From the NCBI GenBank assembly GCA_014925825.1, contig JACGCK010000176.1, forward strand, positions 1 to 64,000: a stretch of 64,000 nucleotides of DNA. The letters are read 5' to 3'. This document shows positions 6,681 through 59,721 of the stretch, piece after piece. The notes under the pieces are model-generated. The model was not told the origin of the DNA. It was given only the letters and a program-made list of their open reading frames with translations, and did not search any database. This DNA comes from Pholiota molesta (lineage: Eukaryota; Basidiomycota; Agaricomycetes; Agaricales; Strophariaceae). Every line of letters starts with the position of its first letter. Within the stretch, counting starts at the first letter, position 1. Position numbers and translations under genes: made by a program.

Positions 6681-8651
6681 ATGGCGAACGATTTCTGTGA
6701 TTTACCGCAAGAGCTACATATTCAGATCCTTTCCAATCTCGATGCGGTTTCGCTCGTCCGATGTGCGACGGTGAGATTATGTACATCGCTATGATATCTG
6801 TGGAGAAATCTAAAACCACAGGATCGCACAGACGTGCACGTCCATCTACGACACCCTCAAAGGTTCCTCTTTGCTGGAGTATACTATTCAGCTGCACCTG
6901 GACGGCCTCGAAGATGGCGGAACATCACTGAGCCACACAGACCGTATCGCGTCCCTTATGCGCCGACGTCGGGCCTGGCTGGCACTCGAGACGAAAGGGC
7001 CTCTTACTGTGCAGACGCAGCCTGATGGTGATGTATTCGAGCTCGCCGGAGGCGCTTTCGCTACTGCGAGCAGCGAGCCGGATCACTTTGAAATTATATG
7101 GTTACCTACCGCCAGCGATGCCACTCAACGCACGATTCAAACACCCCTGAATCGAAGACCCCTGGACGAAAATCTCTTAGAAGGGAAGTTCACGATGGAT
7201 CCGACACAGGATTTGATGGTGTTTGTAGAGGACGACGGGACGTGAGTACCTGTGTATTATCTTGTAGTTCCACAATCTTGAGGTGAACCATTCGTAGCCC
7301 ACCATCAATGATCGACACGCGTATCGTCCACATTCACATTCGTGCTATATCTACCAATACTATCCATCCGCAGGCGCAGCAAAGCCCCTTGCAATTTACG
7401 GTTGTTCCGGAATATCGCCAAGAAAATGAGTACACCATTTCCGTTCTTCAAGTTGCGTACAGCGTCGTTGCCGTTCATTTCCACTATGCTGGAGGGAAGG
7501 CGCGTGCATTGGTATGGGACTGGACGACATCGGATCTGCTATTGGTGCGCCCGAATTTTATGCTACTTTGTAACATATTTGACGTTGATTATAAAGGATA
7601 CCTCTGCATCTTTTGATCGCTGCCCTCCCTCGTTGGAATATGACTTCCGGCTTCTCGATTCCACGTACTTCTTCATTACGACGGAAGCCATCTGCGGCGC
7701 GATTCAGCTATACAAGCTTGTACGATCCCACGCGACGACTACCCAGGCAGTGCACCTCGCTACACTTCATCTTCCGCCCACCTCCCCTGGCATCTCCATC
7801 CGCGGAATCGTCAGCCATGCTGGCCCCGTTGAGGCGAACCCCCTCCCGCATACACCATTCACGATACACGACGATCACCGCCTACACATGTTCACCGTGC
7901 AGTACAACCACCCGATGAATGTTGGGGAACATCGCGTTCGTTATGTGAACGTGTTCCTGCACCAGCGCGTGCTCCTCAAGTACGCCCGCCGCGCGCGTAT
8001 GGCCCAGGAGCATGCGCCGCTGGATATTCCCTGGGCGGAATGGGGCCCGCTGAACACGCGGGTGGTTTTTACTGTCCATCCGCATGATGGGTCGCACTGG
8101 AAAAGGTGGATATACCCGCTTTGTGGACGTTGAGGATATGCGCAGTGCTCACATTCTCTATTTCGCGTGCAGATGTGTCTATGGCCAACGTGCCGTTGTG
8201 ACGGAGAACACGCCAGAGCGCCCCCACGCCGTCGACCTCTTGGATTTCTCCCTAGCAGCGGTGCTCTCCGCAAAGGGCGTGCTGGATGCCCCTTCAACAG
8301 CCGCGGCCGCAAAGGGGCACCCTGGGCGCTTGTTGCCGTCCAGTACACGCAAGGAGGATGTGCCGCTCTTTCTTGACGACGTCGAGACGCATCTCCCATG
8401 CGTGCGATCAACGCTGGCCCTCAAGGAGATTCGCCCAGTTTACATGCTCTATGCGGATGGAATTATCGGTATAAATGTACGTCTACCACTTTTAGCTTGA
8501 GAGTATCTATGCGAATAGGCTTCCAGCCGCATATACAGTATTTGGGTGTTTTCTTTGGCTTTACCTCACTTTTTTGTGTATGCATCGTTGACTTTCTTCG
8601 TTGTAGGTCGATCGCGAGGGCAGGTCCGTCTTAACTGTTTATCCTGTCTAG
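6681..8651 (+). CDS. F-box protein, paralogue A
   Basis: Probable substrate-recognition subunit of an SCF ubiquitin ligase. Six exons fit: 6681-6770, 6832-7241, 7298-7544, 7597-8105, 8173-8476 and 8607-8651, giving 534 residues with consistent phases. The N-terminus has an F-box (LPQEL, then IL, LDAVSL, RC, TCTSIYD; about residues 7-40). The rest matches the other paralogues here: a DPTQDL motif about residue 155, WDWTTSDLLL about 245, LFLHQR-like and WAEWGP motifs in the middle, and DDVETHLPC near the C-terminus. The repeated aromatic segments suggest a beta-propeller-like substrate domain, which is inference. It is near-identical to 29282-31257 and lies in duplication arm 1. The start is supported by conservation of MANDFCDLPQEL among paralogues. 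Confidence 0.85.
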
Positions 8652-14756: not shown

Positions 14757-16646
14757 ATGGCGAACGATTTCTGCGATATACCGCAAGAGCTGCAAGTTCA
14801 CATTCTTTCCAACCTCGATGCTGTTTCGCTCATCCGCTGTGCGATGGTGAGGCAGTGCATCGCTTTCATCATCTGTGGGAAGGAAACTAAATCTGTGGGA
14901 TCACGAACAGACATGTAAATCTATCTACGACGTCCTCGAGAGCTCTTCTCTGTTGGTGTACACCATCCAGTTGCACTTGGATGGCCTCAAAGACGGCGGA
15001 ACGACGATCCCCTACCCAGACCTCATTGGATCTCTTGCACGGCGACGTCAGGCGTGGCTATCGCCAGAGAGGATCGAACCGGTTACTCTTTATACCCAAG
15101 ACGACTGCCGAGCATATGAACTTGCCGGAGGTGCATTCGCTAGCACGAGCGAAAATCGCCTTGAAATTCTATGGCTGCCTACTTCGAACGGTGTTAAAGG
15201 ATGTACGCTCCAAGAAGCCTCGATGGGAATCTCAGTTCGGGACTTTACAATGGACCCCACCCAAGATTTGATAATCTTATTAGAGGATACCGGAACGTGA
15301 GTGTCAGTGTACTGTACTCGTGTTGGAGTCCTAAAATCCAATGATTGAAAACTTTTGTAGCCCATCAATCACCAGCGCTCATGCGATCCACATTCGAGCG
15401 ATATCTTCGACCGCAATACATCCACTAGCTAAGCAAAGTCCCTTGCAATTCACGGGCCCTTTCGGGGATCTTGCAACCGCTATCAACTACACCGTTCTAC
15501 AAATTGCACGCGATATTGTGGCACTTTATTATCGCAACGTCTTACTGGAGCCGCGAGTATTGATATGGGACTGGATTACATCGGAACTTATATTGGTACG
15601 CCAAATATTATGCCGCTATTTATTTGTTTCATGAATTACACAGGATAGTACGATCTCTTTCGATCCCTTTCTTAGGCGTTTAGAATATAACTTCGGTCTC
15701 CTCGATTCCACGTACTGCTTTGCAACCGATCCGTCCAACGTCGGATCGATTCGGCTATACAAACTCGACCGTGCCCATGATGTTACCGCCCCAGCAATTC
15801 ACCTCGCTACGCTGTATCTTCCGCGCACCTCCCCTGGTACTACTATCCTCCGAATCTCTAGCCATGCCGGGCCCATTGAAGCGAATTCGGTTCCGTACGG
15901 AGCGTTCATAATCAACGACGACGACCGCTTGCATGTGTTCACGGCTATATACCAACATCGAATCGGCGACAGTGATATATGGCGAGTCAGGCCTTTGGTT
16001 TTGTTCCTACACCAGCGCGTTTTCGCACAGTATGCGCATCGAGCGCTCACTAGTCCCTGTCCTCTGGATATAGTATGGGAGGAATGGGGCCCACTGAACA
16101 CGATGTTCACCTGTCAAATAAGCTGCAACTCCTCCCGTTGGATAAGGTTCTTATTTTCTTCTTAGTGCCCGCCCAGTATACTTATCCCCTTCATTTGCAG
16201 GTATATTCATGGCCAACGCTATGTTCTCCCGGCCTCAGGACGTAACATTAATGACGATGCACATATGACAAATCCATCTCGCTATGTAGACGTCCTTGAC
16301 TTCTCTCTCACAGCCGTACTGTCTGCAAAAGGCGTTCTTACCAAGCTCCGGGCGACTCCAAGTCCCAACAAAAAGCCTAGGACTCCATTACCGTCAAGTA
16401 TAATTTCCGTCGAGGATGTGCCTTTTTTCGTCGATGACGTGGAGACGCACCTTCCGTGCTTGATCTCGACGCTGGACTTCACGCAAGTCCATGAGGCCTA
16501 CATGATTCATGATGATGGTATTATCGGATTAAATGTACGTTCACAACTTGTTTTTTCAGTCACCCATACAAATAAGCTTCCGTGTGCACATTTGGAGGAC
16601 TTTTAACCTTGCTGCTTGAATTTTTCAGTCGCTGAATTGTCGCTGA
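14757..16646 (+). CDS. F-box protein, paralogue B
   Basis: Exons 14757-14846, 14911-15296, 15361-15595, 15644-16146 and 16201-16534 are in phase. A short last exon (16629-16646) is tentative and would give about 521 residues. The F-box is at the N-terminus (MANDFCDIPQELQVHILSNL). Family landmarks follow: DPTQDL, WDWITSELIL, LFLHQR, WEEWGP, YIHGQR and DDVETHLPC. It begins about 390 bp after the URC1 stop, the same URC1-then-F-box order found with decayed URC1 copies further right, so this is probably the parental arrangement. It is clearly diverged from paralogues A and D. The terminal exon is the weakest part of the model. Confidence 0.8.
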
Positions 16647-29281: not shown

Positions 29282-31257
29282 CTAGACAGCATAAACAGTT
29301 AAGACGAACCTGCCCTCGCGATCGACCTACAACGAAGAAAGTCAACGATGCATACACGAAAAACGTGAGATAAAGCCAAAGAAAACACCCAAATACTGTA
29401 TACGCAGCTGGAAGCCTATTCGCGTAGATATTCTCAAGCTAAAAAAGAGTGGTGGACATACATTCACACCGATGATTCCATCCGCATAGAGCATGTAGGC
29501 TGGGCGAATCTCCCTGAGGGCCAGCGTTGATCGCACGCATGGAAGATGCGTCTCGACATCGTCAAGAAAGAGCGGCACGTCCCCCTTGGGGAGTGTACTG
29601 GACAGCAACAAGCGCCCACGGTGCCCCTTTGCGGTCGTGGTTGAAGGCACGTCCAGAAGGCCCTTGGCGGACAGCACCGCTGCCAGGGAGAAATCCAAGA
29701 GGTCGACGGCGTGGGGGCGCTCTGGCGTGTTCTCCGCCACAACGGCACGTTGGCCATAGACACATCTGCACGCGAAATAGAGAATGTAAGCACTGTAAAT
29801 ATCCTCAACATCCAAAAAGTGGGTATATCCACCTTCGCCAGTGCGCCCCATCATGCGGATGGGAAGTAAAAACCACGCGCGTGTGCAGCGGGCCCCATTC
29901 CGCCCAGGGAATATGCAGCGGCGCATGCTCCTGGGCCATACGCGCGCGGCGGGCGTACATTAGGAGCACGCGCTGGTGCAGGAACACGTTCACATACCGA
30001 ACCCGATGTTCCCCCACATCCATCGGGTGGTTGTACTGCACGGTGAACATGTGTAGGCGGTGATCGTCGTGTATCGTGAATGGTGTATGCGGGAGGGGGT
30101 TCGCCTCAACGGGGCCAGCATGGCTGACGATTCCGCGGATGGAGATGCCAGGGGCAGGGGGCGGAAGATGGAGTGTAGCGAGGTGAACTGCCTGGGTAGT
30201 CGTCGCGTGGGATCGTACAAGCTTGTATAGCTGAATCGCGCCGCAGATGGCTTCCGTCGTAATGAAGAAGTACGTGGAATCGAGAAGCCGGAAGTCATAT
30301 TCCAACGAGGGAGGGCAGCGATCAAAAGATGCAGAGGTATCCTTTATAATTAACGTCAAATATGTTACAAAGTAGCGTAAAATGTGGGCGCACCAATAGC
30401 AGATCCGATGTCATCCAGTCCCATACCAATGCGCGCGCCTTCCCTCCAGCATAGTGGAAATGAACGGCAACGACGCTGTACGCAATTTGAAGAACGGAAA
30501 TGGTGTACTCATTCTCTTGGCGATGTTGCGGAACAACCGTAAACTGAAAGGGGCTTTGCTGCGCCTGCGGATGAATAGCATTGGTAGATATAGCCCGAAT
30601 GTGAATGCGGACGATACGCGTGTCGGTCATCGATGGTGGGCTACGAATGTTTAACCTGAAGATTATTGAACCACAAGATAATACACAGGTACTCACGTCC
30701 CGTCGTCCTCTACAAACACCATCAAATCCTGTGTCGGATCCATCGTGAACTGCCCTTCTAAGAGATTTTCATCCAGGGGTCTTCGACTCAGGGGTCTTTG
30801 AATCGTGCGTTGAGTGGCATCGCTGGCGGTAGGTAACCATATAATTTCAAAGTGATCCGGCTCGCTGCTCGCAGTAGCGAATGCGCCTCCGGCGAGCTCG
30901 AATACATCACCATCAGGCTGCGTCTGCACAGTACGAGGCCCTTTCGTCTCGAGTGCCAGCCACGCCCGACGTCGGAGCATCAGAGACTCGATGCGTTCTG
31001 TGTGGCTAAGTGATGTTCCGCCATCTTCGAGGCCGTCCATGTGCAGCTGAATAGTATACTCCAGCAAAGAGGAACCTTTGAGCGTGTTGTAGATGGACGT
31101 GCACGTCTGTGCGATCTCGTAGTTTTAGCCGCTTCCACAGAGATCATAGCGATGTACATAATCTCACCATCGCACATCGGATGAGCGAAACAGCATCGAG
31201 GTTGGAAAGGATCTGAATATGTAGCTCTTGCGGTAGATCACAGAAATCGTTCGCCAT
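29282..31257 (-). CDS. F-box protein, paralogue D (inverted twin of A)
   Basis: Six exons on the minus strand (31168-31257, 30697-31106, 30394-30640, 29833-30341, 29462-29765, 29282-29326) give 534 residues, the same exon lengths as paralogue A. Differences from A are scattered substitutions that keep the frame, for example in the Ala-rich segment before the DDVETHLPC motif. That suggests a recent duplication with both copies still under coding constraint. The F-box and all family landmarks (DPTQDL, WDWMTSDLLL, LHQRVLL, WAEWGP, VYGQRA) are present. A role as SCF substrate receptor is inferred from the F-box only. Confidence 0.85.
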
Positions 31258-37879: not shown

Positions 37880-39766
37880 ATGGCGAGCTTCTCTGATTTG
37901 CCACAAGAGCTGTATATCGAGATACTGTCCAACCTCGACCCCGAATCACTCATCCGCTGCGCGATGGTAAGGCAATGCGTCCATGTATCCCAATAGAGGC
38001 TAAACCTGTTGGACCACAACAGACATCTAAATCTATGCACGACGCCCTCAAAAGCTCCTCTTCATTAGTGTATACTGCTCAGTTGCACTTGGATGGCCTC
38101 AAAGATTGCGGAACATCAATCGCCTACCCAGATCTCATTGAGTTGCTTGTACGGCGACGGCAGGCGTGGCAGTCACCAGAGAGGAGAGAGCCTCTTACTT
38201 GCCGTACGCTACGTGATTCTGAAGCGTACGAGTTTGTCGGCGGTGCTTTCACTAACACGAGCCAGGGCACGGACTTCCTCCAATTCATACAGGTCCCAAT
38301 CTCCAATGGCGGCCAAGGATGTACGGTTCGAAGGCCGTTGATTGGGATCCCAGTTGAGGCGTTGGGCTTGGATCCGACACAGGATTTGATAGTCTTTCTA
38401 GAGGAAATCGGAATGTGAGCACCAGCGTATTATCCTTGTGCGATCTCAAGTTTCAATGCCTCCATAGACTAGGCGACACTCGTACCCTGCATGTCCATAT
38501 TCGCACCATATCTGCGAACACAATACATCCGTTCGCGCAGCAAAGCCCCTTGCGATTTACTGTCTTTGCGAAACTTGAACATTTGTACGGAGCCGCTCCC
38601 GTAGAAACTGCCACTCTACAAATCGCACGCAACACCCTTGCGCTTTTTCTGTGTAGCAACACGGAGGTGCCAATACTAGCGATATGGGACTGGACTACAT
38701 CGGAACTTATATTGGTAAGTTTGCCTGATTTTATACCGCTTTCAGTCTATTTCATAAATCACACAGGATAGTGCTATCTCTTTCGACCCCCTCTCACATT
38801 GGGATACAAGTTCGGTCTCCTCGATTCCACTTACTTCTTTATAGCCTGTCCGTGGAACTACGGATCGATTCGGCTATTCAAACTCGTGCGATCCCACGCG
38901 GGCGCGGCCCCAGCAGTGCACCTCGCTACGCTGCACCTCCCACTCACCTCCCCGAACACGTTCGTCCGCCGAATCTCCTGCGACGCCGGGCCCATCGCAA
39001 GGCACCCGCTCCCGCAGACATCGTTCACGATCAACGATGATGACCGCTTGCACGTGTTCACCGTGGTATACGACCACTGTAACGCGAGCCGGCGCGTCAA
39101 TCCTGTGACCTTGTTCCTGCACCAGCGCGTACTTGCAACATATGCGCACCGCGCGCTCACGCTCGAGACACCCTTGGATGTATTGTGGGAGGAATGGGGC
39201 CCGGCGAACACGATGTTGGCCCAGCCTTTTGCGCACTATGAGCCGAACTTCATAAGGTTCTTATTGACTTATTTATTTGCGCGATGACTGTCTTCACCTT
39301 CTATTCCTTTCGTTCGCAGATACGTCCACGGCCAACGCTGTATTTTCCCGGGAGGGATCATCGGCGATGATAATCCTATGCAATGTCCGCCTTCCCGCTA
39401 TGTGGAAATCCTCGACTTCTCGTCTGCAGCCGTGCTGACCTCTAAGGGCATGCTGCCCGCGCTCCTCCCGACGCCAAAGGGCAAGCCGGGGACATTGGTG
39501 CCGTCGAGTATCGTTCGCAGTGAGGATTTTTCGTTCTTCCTCCACGACGTGGAGACGCACCTTCCGTGCGTCATCACGACGCTGGCCCTCAAGCAGCCTT
39601 ACGACGCCTACATGATCCATGCTGACGGCATTGTCGGTGTAAAGGTACGTTGACTCGTTTGATCTATTTGTACTTTAGTCATTGATTTTCCTCCATGTAG
39701 ATGAATCGCCACAAGGATTATTTTCTCTTACACATGTACGCCGCCTACCTTAAACGCTCTTCCTGA
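37880..39766 (+). CDS. F-box protein, paralogue E, with one frameshift
   Basis: Exons 37880-37966, 38022-38414, 38468-38714, 38767-39256, 39320-39644 and probably 39701-39766. The N-terminal F-box (MASFSDLPQELYIEILSNL) and the landmarks DPTQDL, WDWTTSELIL, LFLHQRVL, WEEWGP, YVHGQR and DDVETHLPC are all present. In exon 4 the frame shifts after FDP at a run of five C (38787-38791). One more C would join the two halves and restore the paralogue pattern up to FGLLDSTYFF. Either this is a base-call loss or the gene is newly broken. The last exon has no resemblance to those of its paralogues. Confidence 0.75.
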
Positions 39767-42534: not shown

Positions 42535-42569
42535 GGTGGTTCAAAAAGTAACTTGTAAAACTAACATAT

Positions 42570-42607
42570 CCCTGCCATATGTTAGCATAAGCTAACATAT
42601 GGCAGGG
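42570..42607. repeat. Perfect 17-bp hairpin in the 5' subterminal region
   Basis: CCCTGCCATATGTTAGC (42570-42586) is followed by a 4-base loop and its exact reverse complement (42591-42607). It lies 12 bp inside the left terminal repeat. The stem contains the CATATGTTAG motif that recurs in both ends of the element. It could be a paired binding site for the transposase, or extrude as a cruciform. Confidence 0.9.
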
Positions 42608-43176
42608 CAAGTTAGTTTCTCACATGTTAGCGCATGTTGCCGAAACTCCGCTCGCTTAACTTGGGCGAGCAAGCGAGCGCTAACATGCAGTAACATGTGG
42701 GCGCTACATGTTGAGCTACAAGTTAGTGGAAAGTATATAGAAGCACTGCATGTATATTAGCATGTATCTCGATATTTTGTATAATATCTTTGTGAAACGT
42801 TGACATAGGAGGCAGAACCATAGAAGTTGTCACTTGATCAGCAGATACAGATTTATTTCAAATAATCACTGCATGATATCGACGCTCCATTCTACTTATC
42901 TGCCTCCGCATGATAAGCTGCAGTATAGAAAAGAACATTTGACAATGGGGGCCGTTAGCTACTCATCTCGACGATGCTACAAAGAATTCGACAGCTTTTT
43001 GGCTTTTTGGGACAATCCGGACAAACTCCCACTGAGCCGTCTATCGTGCAAGACCGCAATGCATATCCTGCACAATATGTTGGGCCCCCTTATCTTGGTG
43101 TGATACATGAAACTCTCAATTGAATCATCGAGTTACTCATTAAATTATAGGGTATCACCCAATATTTAATCCTCCA

Positions 43177-46100
43177 ATGCTTCATCAGACAGACATGACG
43201 GCGCCGCCAAGTCTGTGAAATCTACGTTTGGTCTATCAATTACTAAATGCGGATATACAGACGTTCCAATGGGCTACCCGCCATACTTCTATCCAGGATA
43301 CATGCCTATGATGCCCCCACCTGGCCCTCAGTACCCGAATCATACTGTTTTTACTCCACCCTTTCAGTTGCCTTTGATAAATCCGACCCATAGGGATCCA
43401 ATTGCACCTGTTTCTGGACAACAGTCGATCAAACAGGAAGCCGGCGAGGGAAAACAGATGGCTGCTCTGACCACCGAGCGCCTAGAGGATAAGACGAAAG
43501 TAATAATAGAGTCTCCCAGTAAAGGTGAAACAATGAAAACTATTAAAGGACATGCCGCTAATTGATTATAGATGATAACACATTGGATTGGCCTAATGGC
43601 GATCAACATCGCGAATGTCTTGCAACGGAACAGCCACGGAAGTGGAAGGCAACCAAGTGGGCATGGCGCTCGACTGGATACGTTGACCACAATGAATACC
43701 GGGCTGAACTTCGTATCTGTCTGGGAATACTGTCATGCACAAATTCTGCCTGTGGTCGCCTTGTTCGTCCCAAAACTGTCACCTCTACTCGCGACAATCA
43801 AATCATTGACGGCTGCAAAATTTGCCACTCACCCATGGTAAAGAGCCCTGAATGTCCAGCTCGAACATTCCATTATGATTTTACCAAGAATAATCAACGA
43901 TACAAGGGCTGGGATCATAAGGGACATCACAACCATCCAAAGCTTCCAGGTGGTTACTTATCTGTGGCAGAGGAAGATGCTTTCGACGCGCAAGTTGCAC
44001 GCAATCCCACTGCCTCTGCCCACGCTTTACGCACTGGAAATACCGTCCCTGGATCGGTCCCATTACCTGATATCTCCGCAACTTTGGCTAATCCTCAAGC
44101 TGCTCGGTATCGACTCTCGCAAAGCCAGGTACGGCTTGGTATTTCAAATCCTACATCGACCAAAGGCGGAATATCTGTCTTTAAAATGATGTATCAACTT
44201 TCATCTGAGCTAGGCGATCCATTCATTATCGATTCTTCGCTTCATGGGCCTTCGTTTATAATGTTCCAGACCCCATTTATGAAGTCGGTCCTTGTTGATT
44301 CAATTAACTCATGGAACAACGATTCCAATGGCGCTTCTACTGGACGACATGGATTTGTAACCGATGGCGACCACTCTTTCTTTCGTGAAGGAGTCCTCAA
44401 TATGACCTGTGTCTTTAATTCTGTTATGGGTGCCTGGATTCCTGTCTTGTACACTTGGATTCTCCGACAGGACATTGCCCATCACCGTCCTCATTTTCGC
44501 CGTATCTCACAGACCGTTATTGAGCATATCCAGCTCCATGACATGCCCTTTGAAGGCAAATATCTGCTACATGTAATATTATATTTTACCACCGTCTTCA
44601 TTTTTTTTAAAATTGGATGGCTAATTATTTTCACAGGTTTTCGATTTCTCAGCTGCACAGCGCTCCGCTCATGCCGAAGAATATGCGGAGGCTCTCATTT
44701 CAATGCTGCCAGGATATTCGAGGCTTACCAAAGCTTCGCAGGCTATTGAACGAGATTCTTTTCTTCAGCAAGCTCTCGAGGTGGAGAGGGGATGCTCATT
44801 TCACTTTTGGGAATCTGCCGAGCGTATTAAATCGAACGGCGCTCTCATTCCACAGGAAAAGGCCTACGAATTCAATCGATACCTTTGCATACTCGTCGAT
44901 GAAGGCACAACTCATGATGAGTTCGATAAAACCATTGATTTGTTACATTCAAATTTTCCCCGCATTCACAACTGGCTATCTTGGTGGCTTCGCCCTACTT
45001 ATCGCTCAATGATCTTCCCTGCTTATAGCATGCTTGATCCTGATATTGCAGCCCAAGTTCCCAAGACGTCTAACCCCGCTGAACATTCACACTCTCTACT
45101 CCATAATGCTGTTGGAACCGATCAGGATCTTATTCCTGGTATTAGAAAACTCTTTCTTCATGTAAAGCAGCTTGAATCCCAATTCAATGCGATTAAAGGT
45201 ATGATTCTATATATTTGAGTATGCTATATGATCAGTTCTAATCGATATAATTCAATATTTAGATGGTCACTATGATCCAGCACCCCCTCGATCGTATCGT
45301 TCCCCTGCGAAGAAGACATTCGATGTGAATGATGGTCGTGCTCCGGACACTGAGCAAGCACTCAATCCTCGGCGCATATTCGATTTCAATCCCTTGACTG
45401 TCAATAGCAACCACTTGGTCTCATACAAGTGGTTGAGCCCAAACTCCTGCTTTATTGATGTCGGGCTTGAGATCTGGTTTCGTGCTTACTGTGCTTGGCC
45501 TAAAGAGGTGAAGACTGCATTTTTATCTGCCATTCCCAGCAACACCTTTCTATCGTGTCTTTTTTATCATTATGATCGTCGGTTCAAGCAGCTATATGTT
45601 GCCAAATCAAACACCAGCCTCAGACAAAATTTGGACCTCATGCAGACCATGGCTCTGAATTATGTCTTCGATAAATGGCAACTTTATTCAGATAGAACTG
45701 AGTATGGGTGTGCGAAGACATGGCTCACTCACGCTGTTCGGGTACGTCATGGTTATATCATTTGACATAAATTAATTTCCATATTTTAATGTGTAGGATG
45801 GAAACCCCAGTATCGAACTCCAGGGATATTTCGGTCTCACCCATGAAATTCACTGTAAATGTGTGAATGGACATATCTCCTCCGTTCCAATCGCGAAACT
45901 TCCGGAAGTATGGTTCACAATCAATAACTGGGACATGGAGATTGCACATTCTGTCTTCGGTGGCCAGGTCACTACAACGAACTACTTTCAACATTACATT
46001 CCTCGATCTTCGGGAGGAAACTTTGCAGGTGGTACAACCCCGATCCATCTTATACCCAGCGAGAAATGTTCCGACCCCTCATGCTCGGCTCCATCTGCCA

Positions 46101-48171
46101 TCTCATCTGTGTCAACATGCTGGCCTCAAATATTTAACATCAATGCCGACGTCCGCATGGATTCAGAAAAGCTGCGATTCGAAAACAGCTTCACAATCCT
46201 CGATGGCGACTCATCAGTTGTCACATACGAGCTTGTAGGAAGGGTTCGTCATATTAATGGCAATCACTTTATTGCAGAGCTTCGTTTTGGCGAGCAATGC
46301 TATGTCTATAACGATATGACAACCGAAGGAAAGCTTGTGGCTTCAGATAATCCGAAGCTATTAGAGATCAGAAATGACCTCGAGTCTGTCTGCTATATTT
46401 ATACTCGTAGCTCAACGAAACACAAGGTATGTTTCTGTGGTATACATGTATGGCTGATCGTCTCATAATATTATTTTACAGACTACAAAATTGGTTACAG
46501 CGATCGAGGCCGACTACACACGCCGGCAAGATTCAGCTCAGTCCAACCATGTCTTGGATCTCTGTTCCCCGACGCCGGCACCCGCCCAACAAATTCATCC
46601 CCAGCCTGTACCGGCTGACAATGACCACCCTCCTGTCCAGCTTGTACCGGGCCTGGTTGACAGCGGTCACACTGCTGTCGAGTTGGATAGCTATCCTGTC
46701 GACTCATATGAGCTTTGCGACGTCTGTAAAGTCTCGAAGCTGAACAAGGATAGCCCATTCCCATGCATTATGGTTACATGCACTCTATGTGAACGAAAAT
46801 GGCATGAAGACTGTGTTTCATTGGGCTCTAATACCGCTGACTTGGACGATACCTGGGCATGTCCTGCCTGTGTTAATCCTCACAAAGGCCGATGGGACGA
46901 AGCTATGTGAGTTTTATGTTTTACAACATGACTCTTCAATTTTAATTAATATACACAGGCTTGGAGCTTATATACTCCTGAAGCCCGTACCATCCGCACG
47001 GTTTTATCCCGCTCAAGTTCTGGGACGGACCTCTACTCACAGTGTTCATGTTGAGTGGTACAGTGGCAATGTTTATCACACTCATGACGACCCACCGAGC
47101 CCTGTATCTATATTTACTCCCCTTGAGTGTTTACAAGCGAGAAACCGGGACTCTTTCTTTTCGTATAACAAGGTACAGTGGCAATTACTATGTTTTTTAT
47201 ATTTTACTCACTGATAATTTTCTCAGGAAAATTTAGGAACAATACGGTGGCCTATACGCCTCGAAGAAGACGCCGTTGAGAGGCATAATTATCAGAATGA
47301 AGACATCCGCAAAACCTTGGAAGCTGCATATGGAGCGATACTGGAGATCATGCTCGGCGAACGCAAGCACCCAATCGTCGATCTATATATCGCCTGGATC
47401 AAACATCGACCCCGTTCCAACAAGATGATACTTGATCATCAGTTCAACTTCACGGAGCAATTCGAACCTGATATTCTTCCTGCGGACAAGTCTTTAATCG
47501 ACTCCTTCCTGGCTCATCTCTCGCAGGATACAAAGGGCGCAAAAATTCTCGTGGAACAGCATTGGATCTCCAATGTGGCTAGTGTCTTATTTCGTCTTGC
47601 AATTCTACGCCAATATCTCGGACGACAACCCTGTGACGATGAACAGATATTCTATTTAGCTTACACCGGCACTTCCTACTCCAACCATCCACCCGACGAT
47701 ATCTATGCCGAAGCCAAGGATGGCTCTGTCATTCGTATCTTTACCCCTGCTGAACAGGTCGCATCCGCTCTGAAATCCATCGATACTCTTGGCATCCGAC
47801 AAGGTCTTAGGTTTGGTCGGATTGTTGACATGCATGACTACTTGCACGGCATACAACTTGTACGGCCTAGGACTCAAGACGGTGAACAATATTCGTTCTT
47901 TAACACGACGGCTTCTGGAATGGTTGGAGAGAGGCAATTTGTCTCAAATCGGCGATTCGAACCTACTCAGACAGTGAAACCGACCTCAAACGGTAAAGCG
48001 AGACCGCGCCCGAAAGCAAGACCAAAGGGGAAGGCCAAGACGATGCTTTTGGAAGAGGAGTATAGGGTTATAAAACCTGGGCCAATGGTACCGGCGGCCA
48101 AGCGAATGCGAGGTGTGGAGAATGCGACAGGCATTGAACTTCGAAGGAGCAAGCGAAGTAGGACGGATTAA
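43177..48171 (+). CDS. MULE transposase fused to USP-like peptidase, PHD finger and Tudor/PWWP-like segment
   Basis: Nine exons (43177-43210, 43261-43518, 43572-44572, 44637-45198, 45263-45741, 45797-46426, 46482-46906, 46959-47172, 47227-48171) join in phase to 1,515 residues. In order: a Pro/Tyr-rich start; a WRKY-GCM1-type zinc finger (Cys147, 153, 158, 179, 182, 192, then HHNH at 216-219); a transposase core with Asp362 (TDGDHSFF), Asp434 (FDFSAAQR), Cys484-x2-His487 and Glu580 (NPAEHSHS); a USP-like peptidase with Cys681 (PNSCFID), His935 (NGNHFIAEL) and Asn950/Asp951; a C4HC3 PHD finger (Cys1067 to Cys1118); a Tudor/PWWP-like stretch (about 1131-1170); and a basic tail (RRSKRSRTD). The GCM finger with a MULE core is an established combination. 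The peptidase and reader assignments are from motifs only. The first two exons are the least certain. Confidence 0.87.
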
Positions 48172-49642
48172 ATGTTCACTAAGGGTTGGTATCTCATCTC
48201 ATATAATATATTGAAACATGAGAAAACTATCCATTAGCTGTAAACTAATCTACAAATGGTCACTCAGGCGTACTCGACCATTGCCGTGCATCCTTGTGCC
48301 GTGGGAACGCGATTTGGCTCGTATCGACACGTAGTGAGTGCGCGAAATCTGTAGGTCGCAACAGAGCACCGTAGAAAGTACGAATATATTATCCAGTAGT
48401 CGTATACAACATGAGAAAATTACCCGTTAGTTGTAAACTACCTACATGTTAGTGTATGGTAGCTACATGTTACCTACATGTTAGTGTATGATAGCTATAT
48501 GGTAGCTACATGTTACCTACATGTTAGTGTATGATAGCTATATGTTAGCTATATGTTAGCTATATGTTAGCTATATCATAATATGTTACATACATATTGA
48601 CCGTAATAACATACAGCTATGCTGGGCCAACGTACTCGTACATGCAACGTACATGCACTGCAGTGCAAACACAGCCACATTGTCGCACAGAAACAATGTT
48701 ATCCTCATATCCTGAGCACAACTGACCAGAAATGTTAGAAATCTACATAGCTGTACTCTACTCAGCTGTAGCTTGCTTCATATACCAATCTTACACCTTA
48801 GCCGTACATGCCTCTTGCTACAGCCCTTGTGCAGCCCTCCCCGGCACTGATTGTATCGTGGGAACTTAACTTTTTGGCTGGTGTTGAGACGTATTGAGCG
48901 CGCGAAATCTGTAGCTCATAACAGAACGGTATAGAAAGACCTTATGTACAATTTTGTAGTAGCATAGAATGGGGAAAAACTATTTAGTAACTGTAAACTG
49001 CGCTACTAATGGCTATTATAGCCTTTCTCCACTTCAAAAACGCTTGAATGAGCGATAAGTACCGTAACAAAAGCTGTATTGGCCTCTAAAATTATATCCA
49101 GCTACCATTTCCATTTATGAAACGACTTGAAAAGAATGGAAGTGTTGTGAGTCACCGTTCAAAAGTTAGGACAGGTCCTCCTGGTCACCCAATGTACTTT
49201 GGGTGTTTTCTGTGTGAAATTTTGTATATCAAGCATTTGTAAGTGTATTCCCAGCACTATCATACAAATATCTGCTCGGTACATTTTATTTTAGGCTGAT
49301 ATAAGTCATATTCCTATTTTGCGAACATAGTTTCCTCCTCCCCAAGATGAATATTTTACCACTGAGGGCGTCGGAAAGGCATTATGTCCGTGATAATGGT
49401 TTGAAATCGTAAAAATTTGACTTTATAGCAATATACATGTATTATTTGGAATGAAGGTACCACACCGCTGTGCATGCGCATTGATATGCCCATCCCACAT
49501 CTGTATACAGAGGACGCACAGGTCATATGTGAGGTACATGTGTGGGAATATGTTAGTCGCATGTTACAGCGCGCGGCATCTCGGCATTTGGCTGGTGCAC
49601 AAGTGGGCATGTTAGGCGTTACAAGTAACTTTTTACGCAGCC
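48172..49642. repeat. 3' noncoding tail of the MULE with internal repeats
   Basis: No coding frame of interest is present. A block around ACATGAGAAAACTATCCATT plus GTAAACT occurs near 48217, 48411 and 48971. A block with GTGGGAACG, TTGGCT, GCGCGAAATCTGTAG and CAGA occurs near 48300-48370 and 48858-48925. So a unit of about 190-560 bp is repeated in degenerate form. Between 48447 and 48590 the heptamers ATGTTAG and GTAGCTA are repeated many times, mirroring the left end. These are candidate transposase binding sites. Confidence 0.75.
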
Positions 49643-49651
49643 CTCGGTGTG
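49643..49651. repeat. Target-site duplication, right copy
   Basis: An exact second copy of CTCGGTGTG, directly abutting the right terminal inverted repeat of the MULE. Confidence 0.9.
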
Positions 49652-51573: not shown

Positions 51574-53534
51574 ATGGCGAATGCTTTTTGCGAATTACCG
51601 AACGAGCTGCAAGTCGCGATTCTGTCCAACCTCGATGCCGTTTCAATCATCCGCAGTGCCATGGTGAGTGAGGCTACGTCCCTTCGCTCTCGGAAACAAG
51701 CTAAATCAACAAAATCACACAGACATGCACATCCATCTACGACACCCTCAAAGGCTCCTCTTTGTTGCAGTATACAATCGAGCTGCACCGGGATGGCCTC
51801 AAAGACGCTGGAACATCTCTCAACTACCCAGACCTCATCGCGGCCCTCAGGCGGCGACGCCAGGCGTGGCTCCGCCTCGAGATAAAAGAACTGGCACTTA
51901 CTCACCTTACCCCACCCATACATGGCGCATACGAGCTTGTTGGGGCGCATATGCGGATTTAACCGAGGACCGCTTGGAGATGCTATGGCTCCCTGCTCCC
52001 AGCAACGTCAAGGCGCATGCGCTTCAAAGAGCCTCGGTCGGGGTTTCGGGTGTGCATTTTACGATGGATCCGACACAGGATTTGATGGTGATCCTAGAGG
52101 AGGAGGATGAGTGAGTACTTACTTGCGTATCTCATAGCCTGCTCACCTCGAGCGTTGATCCTCTGCAGCCCGCACACCCTCCACATTCGCTCGATATCCA
52201 GGAATGACATCCATCCGCGAGCGCAGCAGAGTCCTTTGCAATGGACCAACATTCCACACACAGACGAGAACGGTATCCGTCTCAACTCGGTTGTTCTGCA
52301 AATCGCATACAATCTCTTGGCGATTTTTTTCACAATGCCTCGAGGGAGGCACAAGTGAGGGTATGGGACTGGACGACATCGGAGCTCCTCTTGGTGCGCG
52401 CAAACGTTATGTCACTTCTCCCTCTATTTCATTTGAATTACACAGGATACCTCTATATCCTCTGACCCTTCCCTCCTGACTTCAATATACGACTTCAGGC
52501 TCCTCGATTCCACGTACTTCCTCATTACATGCCGTTCTGGCTTCGGATCGATCCGTCTGTACAGGCTCGTGCGATCCCACCGTCACGACGCCAACGCCCA
52601 GGCAACCCACCTCGCAACACTTCACCTTCCACCTACCGCCCCCGGCGTCACCATCTACTCAATCCAGCACGAATCAGGCCCCATCGAAGCGAACCCACTC
52701 CCCGGAGAGCCATTCGCGATACACGACGAGGACCGGGTGCACCTCTTCACGGTGATATACCACCCCGAGGAACTCGCGGAGCACTTGGCGCGCTACGGCC
52801 GCTACTATTTCTTCGCGAACCTGTTTCTGCACCAGCGCCTGCTCCTAAAGTATGCGCGGGGAGCGCTTGCCGAGGACGCGCCGATGGATGTTCCGTGGGC
52901 GGAATGGGGCCCGCTGCACACGCGGTTCACTTATTCGCCGCAACAATACCGGTCTCTGAGCGGGAAAAGGTGCAATCCCACATCCCTTTGACCAAATAAC
53001 GCGAATGCTGTGCTCACATCTTACCCCCGTGCGTAGGTATATCCACGGCCAACGCGCTATCTTCTCGGAGGGTGAAACGAGCGGGCGCTCCACCTCCGCG
53101 AAAATCATGGATTTCTCCCGCGCAGCGGTGTCGTTCGCCAAGGGCCTGCCCCCCGTGCGGTCCTCCGCGGCATCTTCGCCTTGGACTCGGAGGCGCAAGC
53201 CCGGGGTGTTGTCGCTGTCCAGTACGATTCGAAGACGGGACATCCCTGTGTTCCTTAGTGACGTGGAGACGCACCTTCCGTGTGTGACGTCGGTCTTGCA
53301 GCTGGAGCGGACGAATGAGATGTACATGATCTATGCGGATGGGTTTGTCGGTGCGAAGGTACGTACGTTTACAGCTTCCTGAGTCGGTGTTGTCTGTGGG
53401 AATGGGTCTCGATCTTAATGTCTGGGACCTTCTCTTGACTTTGTAACTCGAACATGGACTTCAGTCATTGACATTCCCTTTTTTTGTAGTATCAATTCAA
53501 CAACACCCTGGACTTAAACATATACCCCATCTAA
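51574..53534 (+). CDS. F-box protein, paralogue F, with two frameshifts
   Basis: Exons 51574-51663, 51723-52110, 52169-52393, 52446-52969, 53037-53358 and 53490-53534. The F-box is MANAFCELPNELQVAILSNL. The landmarks DPTQDL, WDWTTSELLL, LFLHQRLLLKYARGAL, WAEWGP and YIHGQR are present. Exon 2 breaks at a run of four G (51942-51945), and exon 3 at a run of three G (52344-52346). In both places one added G would rejoin a frame that matches the paralogues exactly. Two single-base losses in G runs look more like base-call errors than decay, but true inactivation cannot be excluded. Confidence 0.75.
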
Positions 53535-57803: not shown

Positions 57804-59721
57804 ATGGCCAATGATTTCTGCGATTTACCACAAGAGCTGCAAATTGAGATCCTTTCCAACCTCGATGCTGTTTCGCTCGCCCGCTGCGCATTGGTGAGAT
57901 CTTGTTGCTTCAAAATCTGGGGAAAGACTAAGACCAACGGACCACGCAGACATGTAAATCCATCTGCGAAACCGTCCATAGCTCCTCCATATTAGTATAT
58001 ACTGCTCAGTTGCACCTGGACGGCCTCAAAGACGGCGGAATGTCAACCAGCCACCCGGACCTGATCGACACCATTGTGCGGCGACGTCAGGCATGGCGGG
58101 CGCTTGACGCGAAAGAACCGCTCACCCGCAAAACGCAGCGCGGTCGCGCAGAAGAGCTTGCCGGGGGTGCGTTCGCTACCATGAGCAAAGACAGAAACCA
58201 CCTCGAGATTATATGGCTGCCTACCGCCGGAAACACAGAGGATTGTAGGCTCCAGTTACCGATGGCGGGTATCACTGTTCAAGAGTTGACAATGGATCCG
58301 ACACAGGACCTGCTAGTTTTACTGGAGGATAGAATGTGAGCTTTTGTGCATTATCTTTCCCATAACCACGATCCCTAATCTGTCGTAGCTTGCCATCGAC
58401 CATCGACACTCAGATCATCTACGTGCACGTTCGTTCCTTATCCACGAACACTGTCCATCCACGCACAAGGCAAAGCCCCTTGCAGTTCACCGTCTATAAT
58501 GATACATCCGATACATATTACTGGACCCGCTCCGACAGAGCCAATTTCCAAATCGCATACAACATCCTGGCAGTTTATTTTACACATGCACCGATGGGGA
58601 CGCGAGTTCTAATATGGGACTGGACAACATCTGATCTACTATTGGTATGCCGAGATTTATGGCGCTGTTAACGTATTCATACTTTGCATTAGGATAGCGC
58701 AACCTCTTTCGATCGTTCTCCCCCAACTTCGAGGTACAGCTTCGGGCTTCTTGATCCCACGTACTTCTTCATCACTTGTCCGTCCGATTGCGGATCGATT
58801 CGGCTGTACAGGCTCGCACAGTTCCCCAAAGGCAGTACGCCCGACCCCACTCACCTCGCGACGCTGCATTTTCCACCTACCCGCCCTCCCGTGAAGCTCC
58901 GCATGGTGAACACCGTGGCCGGCCCCACGGAAGCCAATCCGCCCACGCACCTCCCGTTCACGATAAACGACGACGCGCGCATACTCATGTTCAGATTGGA
59001 ATACGACCCGCAGAACCCTCTCGGCGACTGGTTGAGCGACCGCTTTGTCAACTTGTTTGTACACCAGCGCCTGCTGCTCAAGTATGCGCGCCAAGCGCTC
59101 TCCGCGCACGCGCCTCTGGATGTTCCGTGGGCGGATTGGGGCCCCGCGAATACGCGGCTGATCGAGTCGACCTCTTCGCAGTACGTCAGGCGCGTCAGGA
59201 GGTCCGTGGTCTGCGCTCTTCCGCAGAAAATCGCAGTGCTCACACGTCACCCCTCTACGCGCAGGTTCGTCCACGGCCAGCGTGTCGTTTTCACTGGGAG
59301 AAACATCGGCGAGGACGGCCAGATGGTGTGGCCGCCCCGCTCCGCGGCCTACATCTTCGACTTCTCCCTCGCGGCTGTGCTTTCCGCCAAGGGTGCGCTA
59401 GCGACGCGACCGCCGTCCTCGAGCTCAGTTTCAGAGGGAAAAACCGGGACGTTGTTGCCGCCAAGTTTGATCCGCGCAGAGACCGTCCCTATCTTCCGAG
59501 CGGATGTGGAAACGTATCTTCCATGCGTGATGTCGACGCTGGACTGCAAGAAGATCTATCCAACCTATATGATCTATGCGGATGGGATAGTTGGTATACA
59601 TGTACGTCCACAGCTCCTTTTACTCGGGGTCCTTGGGCCTCAATCAGTCAGTCGTTGACTTTCTTTTTCATAGACGGAACCATTAGATGGGGGTAGTCTC
59701 CTAGATATATACCCTATCTAG
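57804..59721 (+). CDS. F-box protein, paralogue G
   Basis: Six exons in phase (57804-57893, 57950-58335, 58389-58644, 58693-59201, 59265-59601, 59674-59721) give 541 residues with no frameshift. The F-box is MANDFCDLPQELQIEILSNL. Then come DPTQDLLVLLED, WDWTTSDLLL, LFVHQRLLLKYARQAL, WADWGPANTR, FVHGQR and a DVETYLPC motif. It ends in DIYPI, similar to paralogue F's NIYPI, a shared C-terminus that supports the last exon. It lies downstream of URC1 remnants in the same orientation, the standard cassette order. A role as SCF substrate receptor is inferred from the F-box. Confidence 0.85.

Follow-up and report, generated by a model that had tools for sequence, protein, structure and literature searches.

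What would a transposase do with a deubiquitinase-like enzyme and a chromatin-binding tail in its own polypeptide? The question is raised by a 64,000-nucleotide stretch of the mushroom Pholiota molesta (assembly GCA_014925825.1, contig JACGCK010000176.1, positions 1 to 64,000, forward strand; hereafter the window), in which a Mutator-like element (MULE) carries one gene joining a GCM-type zinc finger, a DDE transposase core, a USP-like part, a PHD finger and a Tudor-like part. Computation established the element with both termini, an intact gene, the order of its domains, a USP fold with its triad, and selection keeping the USP and PHD parts. The reading favoured here, with a probability of roughly 0.62, is that of a self-sufficient MULE whose transposase would carry a deconjugating protease together with a tail that binds chromatin.

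The element and its ends were located in the window as follows.

42535–49642, + strand: complete element, assigned to the MULEs, 7,108 bp, with ends common to copies on contigs C445 and C23
42526–42534: left 9-bp target-site duplication, CTCGGTGTG, identical to 49643–49651
49643–49651: right 9-bp target-site duplication, CTCGGTGTG
42535–42558, + strand: imperfect left terminal inverted repeat, agreeing with the right end at 18 of 24 bases (counted by eye)
49619–49642, − strand: right terminal inverted repeat
42558–42687, + strand: left subterminal region, with a near-palindrome (42558–42618) and five ATGTTAG motifs (two forward, three reverse)
48446–49615, + strand: nine ATGTTAG motifs, all forward, six of them forming a short tandem array at 48446–48570

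Perfect 9-bp target-site duplications flanked all three copies checked, each copy having its own: that in the window, one on C445 (TGAGAAAAT) and one on C23 (CAAGGTCAG). This bore out the original prediction, made from the window alone, of an apparently complete MULE with 9-bp duplications. The C445 copy (L023) was full length, its main blocks showing 84.5% identity to the window over 5,717 aligned bases, 91.4% over 791 and a further 79.6% over 614. The C23 copy (L024, 1407–4409), about 3 kb long, had lost its middle and retained both ends at 99.5% and 98.6% identity; it may be a recent non-autonomous derivative, mobilised by transposase in trans. The deposited protein model P0038 probably runs over this derivative. 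A fourth relative, on contig C529, was divergent (63–72% identity in the blocks found), and the contig stops near it. When a piece of a distant copy was searched against plasmid records, no match was obtained.

Together, the two non-coding ends of the element contained 14 copies of the motif ATGTTAG, which are not independent because six of them sit in the tandem array; the gene contained none, and the remaining 56,892 bases of the window two. Mononucleotide shuffles of the ends (n = 1,000) contained 0.4 motifs on average and three at most, and the C445 and C23 copies had 10 and 14, respectively. These repeats are candidate transposase-binding sites. The near-palindrome, 61 bases with 87% self-match on the other strand, adjoins the left end and was also present in the C23 and C445 copies.

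The duplications made by hAT elements are 8 bp long. Both KDZ and hAT identities were considered, and the 9-bp duplications favour a MULE; no KDZ model was found among the Pfam matches of the window protein at E-values up to 10, in a library that presumably contains one. MULE duplications range from 8 to 11 bp (PMC6446971), in agreement with the 9 bp of all three copies, and the terminal inverted repeats typical of MULEs were present, short and imperfect. As a whole, the element is best explained as an autonomous cut-and-paste MULE, an assignment that we consider probable.

The gene and its parts lie within the element as follows.

43177–48171, + strand: transposase gene of nine exons, 1,517 amino acids, open frame, same exon layout in C445
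43646–43978, + strand: GCM-type zinc finger, residues ~125–235 (PDB 1odh: profile E 6.6e-15, fold E 1.6e-6)
43991–45381, + strand: DDE transposase core, residues ~240–660, two introns inside (D364, D436, C486xxH489, E582)
45382–46426, + strand: USP-like protease, residues ~661–990, one intron inside (C683, H937, D953; predicted fold and triad)
46701–46886, + strand: C4HC3 PHD finger, residues ~1064–1125 (Pfam PHD E 0.0049, below cut-off in the window protein)
46959–47172, + strand: Tudor-like part (exon 8), residues ~1132–1203 (Tudor_3 matches; strands in the P0028 model)
47227–48171, + strand: conserved C-terminal part and basic tail (alignment; profile matches in other copies)

The exons (43177–43210, 43261–43524, 43572–44572, 44637–45198, 45263–45741, 45797–46426, 46482–46906, 46959–47172 and 47227–48171) were separated by introns that all had GT..AG borders, and the spliced frame had no internal stop, as expected for the single nine-exon gene that had been proposed to join all parts. 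The layout was kept in C445, where all eight introns had GT..AG borders, exon indels were multiples of three, and the 1,526-amino-acid frame had one terminal stop; identity between the two copies was 65% in exon 1 and 75–94% in exons 2–9. The most doubtful of the exons is exon 1 (34 bases), because the donor of intron 1 was picked to preserve the frame, which a donor two bases further on breaks; an alternative start at 43269 would give 1,503 amino acids. Conservation was assessed in a 51-row alignment of the window protein and 50 relatives, among them P0001, the deposited version of the same gene (99.9% identical to residues 100–991); P0038, which matches over residues 1–278 only, was left out. 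Residue 1 was aligned to Met in all 38 rows having a letter there, which adds little because aligners tend to align first methionines.

The GCM-type finger claimed earlier was confirmed by profile and fold matches to 1odh, with Pfam GCM giving no match on the window protein itself and scoring above cut-off in one of five relatives scanned. WRKY-GCM1 fingers are reportedly linked to MULE transposases. The D-D-CxxH-E core also held up, its residues being near-invariant among the rows with a letter (D364 49/49, D436 48/49, C486 47/47, H489 47/47, E582 51/51).

The USP-like domain was recovered by predicted structure, its sequence-profile matches being marginal. A structure search matched the USP fold, with 22 USP-family rows at E-values up to 0.001 among the matches listed. 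The order Cys-His-Asp/Asn was kept, and the Cys lay at a helix start, helix 584–598 of the P0001 model beginning at C584 (equivalent to C683). Fold searches with the P0028 model, aimed at its PHD and Tudor-like parts, returned USPs as 49/50 and 50/50 among the matches listed, P0028 itself having no Cys box and a weaker model (mean predicted local distance difference test score of 67.4). No USP name rose above cut-off in Pfam scans of the window protein, five relatives and seven USP segments, or in an NCBIfam scan of four relatives. With the USP part alone as query, a search retrieved only six family members and traced no origin from host USPs. Computation on the predicted models gives a USP fold in which the Cys-His-Asp triad is conserved.

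The C4HC3 PHD finger was substantiated by its zinc ligands, CxxC-x4-HxxC being found in 43/44 PHD regions including that of the window, and by profile matches, Pfam PHD scoring above cut-off in 3/5 relatives scanned and a PDB profile matching too. For the Tudor/PWWP-like stretch, the label is weakly backed (Tudor_3 in 3/16 members scanned, best E 0.0044). The C-terminal part (47227–48171) was also found at locus L042 (7723–8679, E 2.2e-60).

The ratio of non-synonymous to synonymous substitution rates (Ka/Ks) between the window and C445 was 0.288 in the N-terminal part, 0.135 in GCM, 0.086 in DDE, 0.084 in USP, 0.346 in the linker, 0.048 in PHD, 0.094 in the Tudor-like part and 0.195 in the C-terminal part, values that come from a single pair of copies and whose bootstrap ranges are wide. 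In this pair, constraint on the USP and PHD parts was similar to that on the transposase core. Ks was 0.28–0.46 over residues 1–1125 and 0.93–1.17 in the Tudor-like and C-terminal parts, and identity was again 91% over the final 791 bases; the two copies look mosaic, perhaps through recombination between element lineages.

Three protein searches, which reach only relatives having exact 5-residue words in common, yielded 93 proteins, 88 with a named organism and three from Pholiota molesta, one of these being the window gene (P0001). We take all named genera to be Agaricomycetes; four species that were looked up belong to the Agaricales, Gomphales, Amylocorticiales and Polyporales. DDE and USP occurred together in 81/93 proteins and with PHD in 43/93, counts that are partly circular because the profiles were built from 28–50 rows of the 51-row alignment; the 43 proteins unused in the profiles (P0038 included) comprised 43 with DDE, 32 with DDE and USP, and 12 with all three. 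The domains first read in the window occurred together in many Agaricomycete proteins: 37/42 of those of at least 1,250 amino acids had DDE, USP and PHD. By best match, the order was DDE, USP, PHD in 43/43; ten apparent breaks were an artefact of taking the earliest among several matches. The 12 proteins without USP were 499–1,103 amino acids long and may be fragments. Its recurrence in numerous mushroom species makes the arrangement look like a stable property of the element rather than a chance event.

Divergent loci of the same genome (24–32% transposase identity) were represented by seven of eight, each examined with its flanks, L016 being left out. Among these GCM–DDE elements (L036–L042), USP was found in 6/7 and PHD in 5/7, L036 (contig C108) having GCM and DDE only. 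At L041 (4157–5746), DDE and the Cys part of USP shared one open frame, while the His part and PHD shared one at L037 (4581–6008), L038, L039, L040 and L042. The whole USP part was never in a single frame at these loci, which may have an intron inside it as the window gene does. Related copies of the divergent loci had 95–99.7% identity in the main blocks and 91% in one 178-base block; some loci have near-identical copies, so they were probably recently active.

In the self-sufficient MULE favoured here, the protein would bind the element ends, probably through the GCM finger and at the ATGTTAG repeats as candidate sites, and the DDE core would cut and join DNA. The USP-fold protease, presumably active, would strip ubiquitin (or, with lower likelihood, SUMO) from proteins belonging or adjacent to the transposition complex; these may be histones, in the chromatin of donor or target, or the transposase itself with its partners. 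The PHD–Tudor-like tail would keep the complex on nucleosomes.

Several observations weigh against this interpretation. The Pfam MULE profile PF10551, a library model and not a defining trait, gave no match to the window protein at E-values up to 10, and CxxH also occurs in hAT elements, thus not being unique to MULEs (PMC5225508). The link to known USPs in sequence is marginal, UCH_1 matching 1/7 USP segments (E 0.011); by profile against solved structures, the USP part matched no USP, its one match being a sorting nexin (E 0.0023) taken as chance. The triad Asp was replaced by Ser in 5/45 rows and by Asn in 1/45, and the Cys was lost in 2/46. No PHD match was found in 38/81 proteins with DDE and USP, many of them short gene models; Gomphales P0066 and Amylocorticiales P0062 likewise had a USP match and no PHD match. 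The deposited P0001 is partial, running from residue 100 and finishing after the USP part, and therefore no annotated model of the window copy displays the whole fusion among those compared; relatives do. PHD fingers that read methylated H3K4 usually carry Trp at the second position ahead of the His that binds zinc. The window copy has a Lys there, departing from this trait of H3K4me2/3 readers, and Trp was found in 24/42 relatives with the motif; histone reading may therefore differ between lineages. Overall, the original interpretation is supported in part: it stands in its domain identities (the USP fold from structure, the PHD and GCM fingers from profiles), its one-protein fusion and, for one pair of copies, selection on USP and PHD, and is weakened in its simplest version by this Lys and by the comparable match of the USP part to the SUMO protease USPL1. 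The element may, as that interpretation further proposed, select insertion sites through histone marks and free histones or host factors of ubiquitin.

Among the alternatives, it is possible, though short of even odds, that the USP part serves mainly to keep the proteasome from degrading the transposase or its partners and does not act on chromatin. The fusion places the enzyme directly on the transposase, and for Helitron VTDs the authors suggest that degradation of proteins needed for transposition is prevented (PMC9741609); alone, however, shielding leaves unexplained the frequent PHD neighbour (the 43/93 proteins, and 37/42 long ones, counted above). Rather doubtful is the idea that the USP part strips ubiquitin from histones at the donor or target site, acting as a portable deubiquitinase of chromatin next to a reader, with a loose resemblance to the SAGA module. 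The fullest version is held just as tentatively: a single-polypeptide chromatin-editing transposase, whose PHD–Tudor tail would dock on nucleosomes and whose own USP would erase histone or transpososome ubiquitin and license insertion, as an old conserved strategy of Agaricomycete MULEs. Guarding the transposase and editing histones are readings that sequence cannot tell apart. It is improbable that the USP-fold part acts on SUMO, as a counterpart of the Ulp1 domains in plant MULEs: it matches the SUMO protease USPL1 about as well as ubiquitin USPs, and the fold cannot decide, but USPL1 accounted for just 2/22 USP-family rows at E-values up to 0.001, the others being different USP/UBP entries. 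MULEs tend to pick up host gene fragments (PMC6446971), yet the low Ka/Ks, the conserved triad and the same order in divergent lineages make captured passengers without a role in transposition very unlikely. Least probable of all is a wrong fusion of two neighbouring genes by the splicing model, as the end of P0001 after the USP part might suggest, given that P0002 is continuous (57% identity over residues 42–1517), all eight introns are retained in C445 and other lineages have single open frames.

Elsewhere in the window, six similar open frames with variants of an LLDSTYFFIT-like motif were noted by eye.

7312–8133, 15635–16165, 29805–30410, 38772–39287, 52437–52991 and 58693–59658, five on the + strand and one on the −: LLDSTYFFIT-like frames

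The element shares with MULEs its 9-bp duplications, terminal inverted repeats, DDE core with CxxH and GCM-type finger; it differs in being missed by the Pfam MULE profile and in its USP-type domain, of which the parts of Table 1 consulted in PMC6446971 show none, 'peptidase' and 'protease' being absent from the main text. Rehavkus elements have a MULE-like transposase with a PHD finger and 9-bp duplications, but differ in their arthropod and annelid hosts and minisatellite, with no protease named in the passages cited (PMC6446971). The VTD and OTU domains of Helitrons are deubiquitinase-type domains within a transposon's own protein, but VTD belongs to a rolling-circle element and has an Asp-x-His arrangement, 'phd' being absent from the main text (PMC9741609). 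In plant Vandal MULEs, the Kaonashi (KIU) Ulp1 genes provide a MULE-borne protease domain for a ubiquitin-like modifier, located in VANC, one of three element genes, and thus outside the transposase (PMC13317346). RAG2-like proteins of RAGL transposons bring a PHD finger to a DDE transposition system, that of sea urchin RAG2L binding H3 dimethylated at K4, but as a separate subunit with kelch repeats and no protease named in the passages cited (PMC7204232). A USP-fold enzyme and PHD in one DDE transposase, or any USP-type domain in a transposase, did not turn up among the papers listed, going by titles and opening lines of abstracts. Deubiquitinase domains borne by transposons, Ulp1 in plant MULEs and PHD fingers in Rehavkus and RAG2-like proteins are each already known, and the combination of a USP-fold enzyme with a PHD finger in one transposase appears new as far as these sources go.

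Ubiquitin-family proteases occur in unrelated transposons, Helitrons and plant MULEs, and why transposons carry them is an old question. The Pholiota gene contributes a further lineage of the USP fold, one almost invisible to sequence profiles. Its enzyme is fused to a transposase and a PHD finger, selection has preserved it since two intact copies diverged, and the element has a derivative that looks recent; point mutants would put the question to a direct test.
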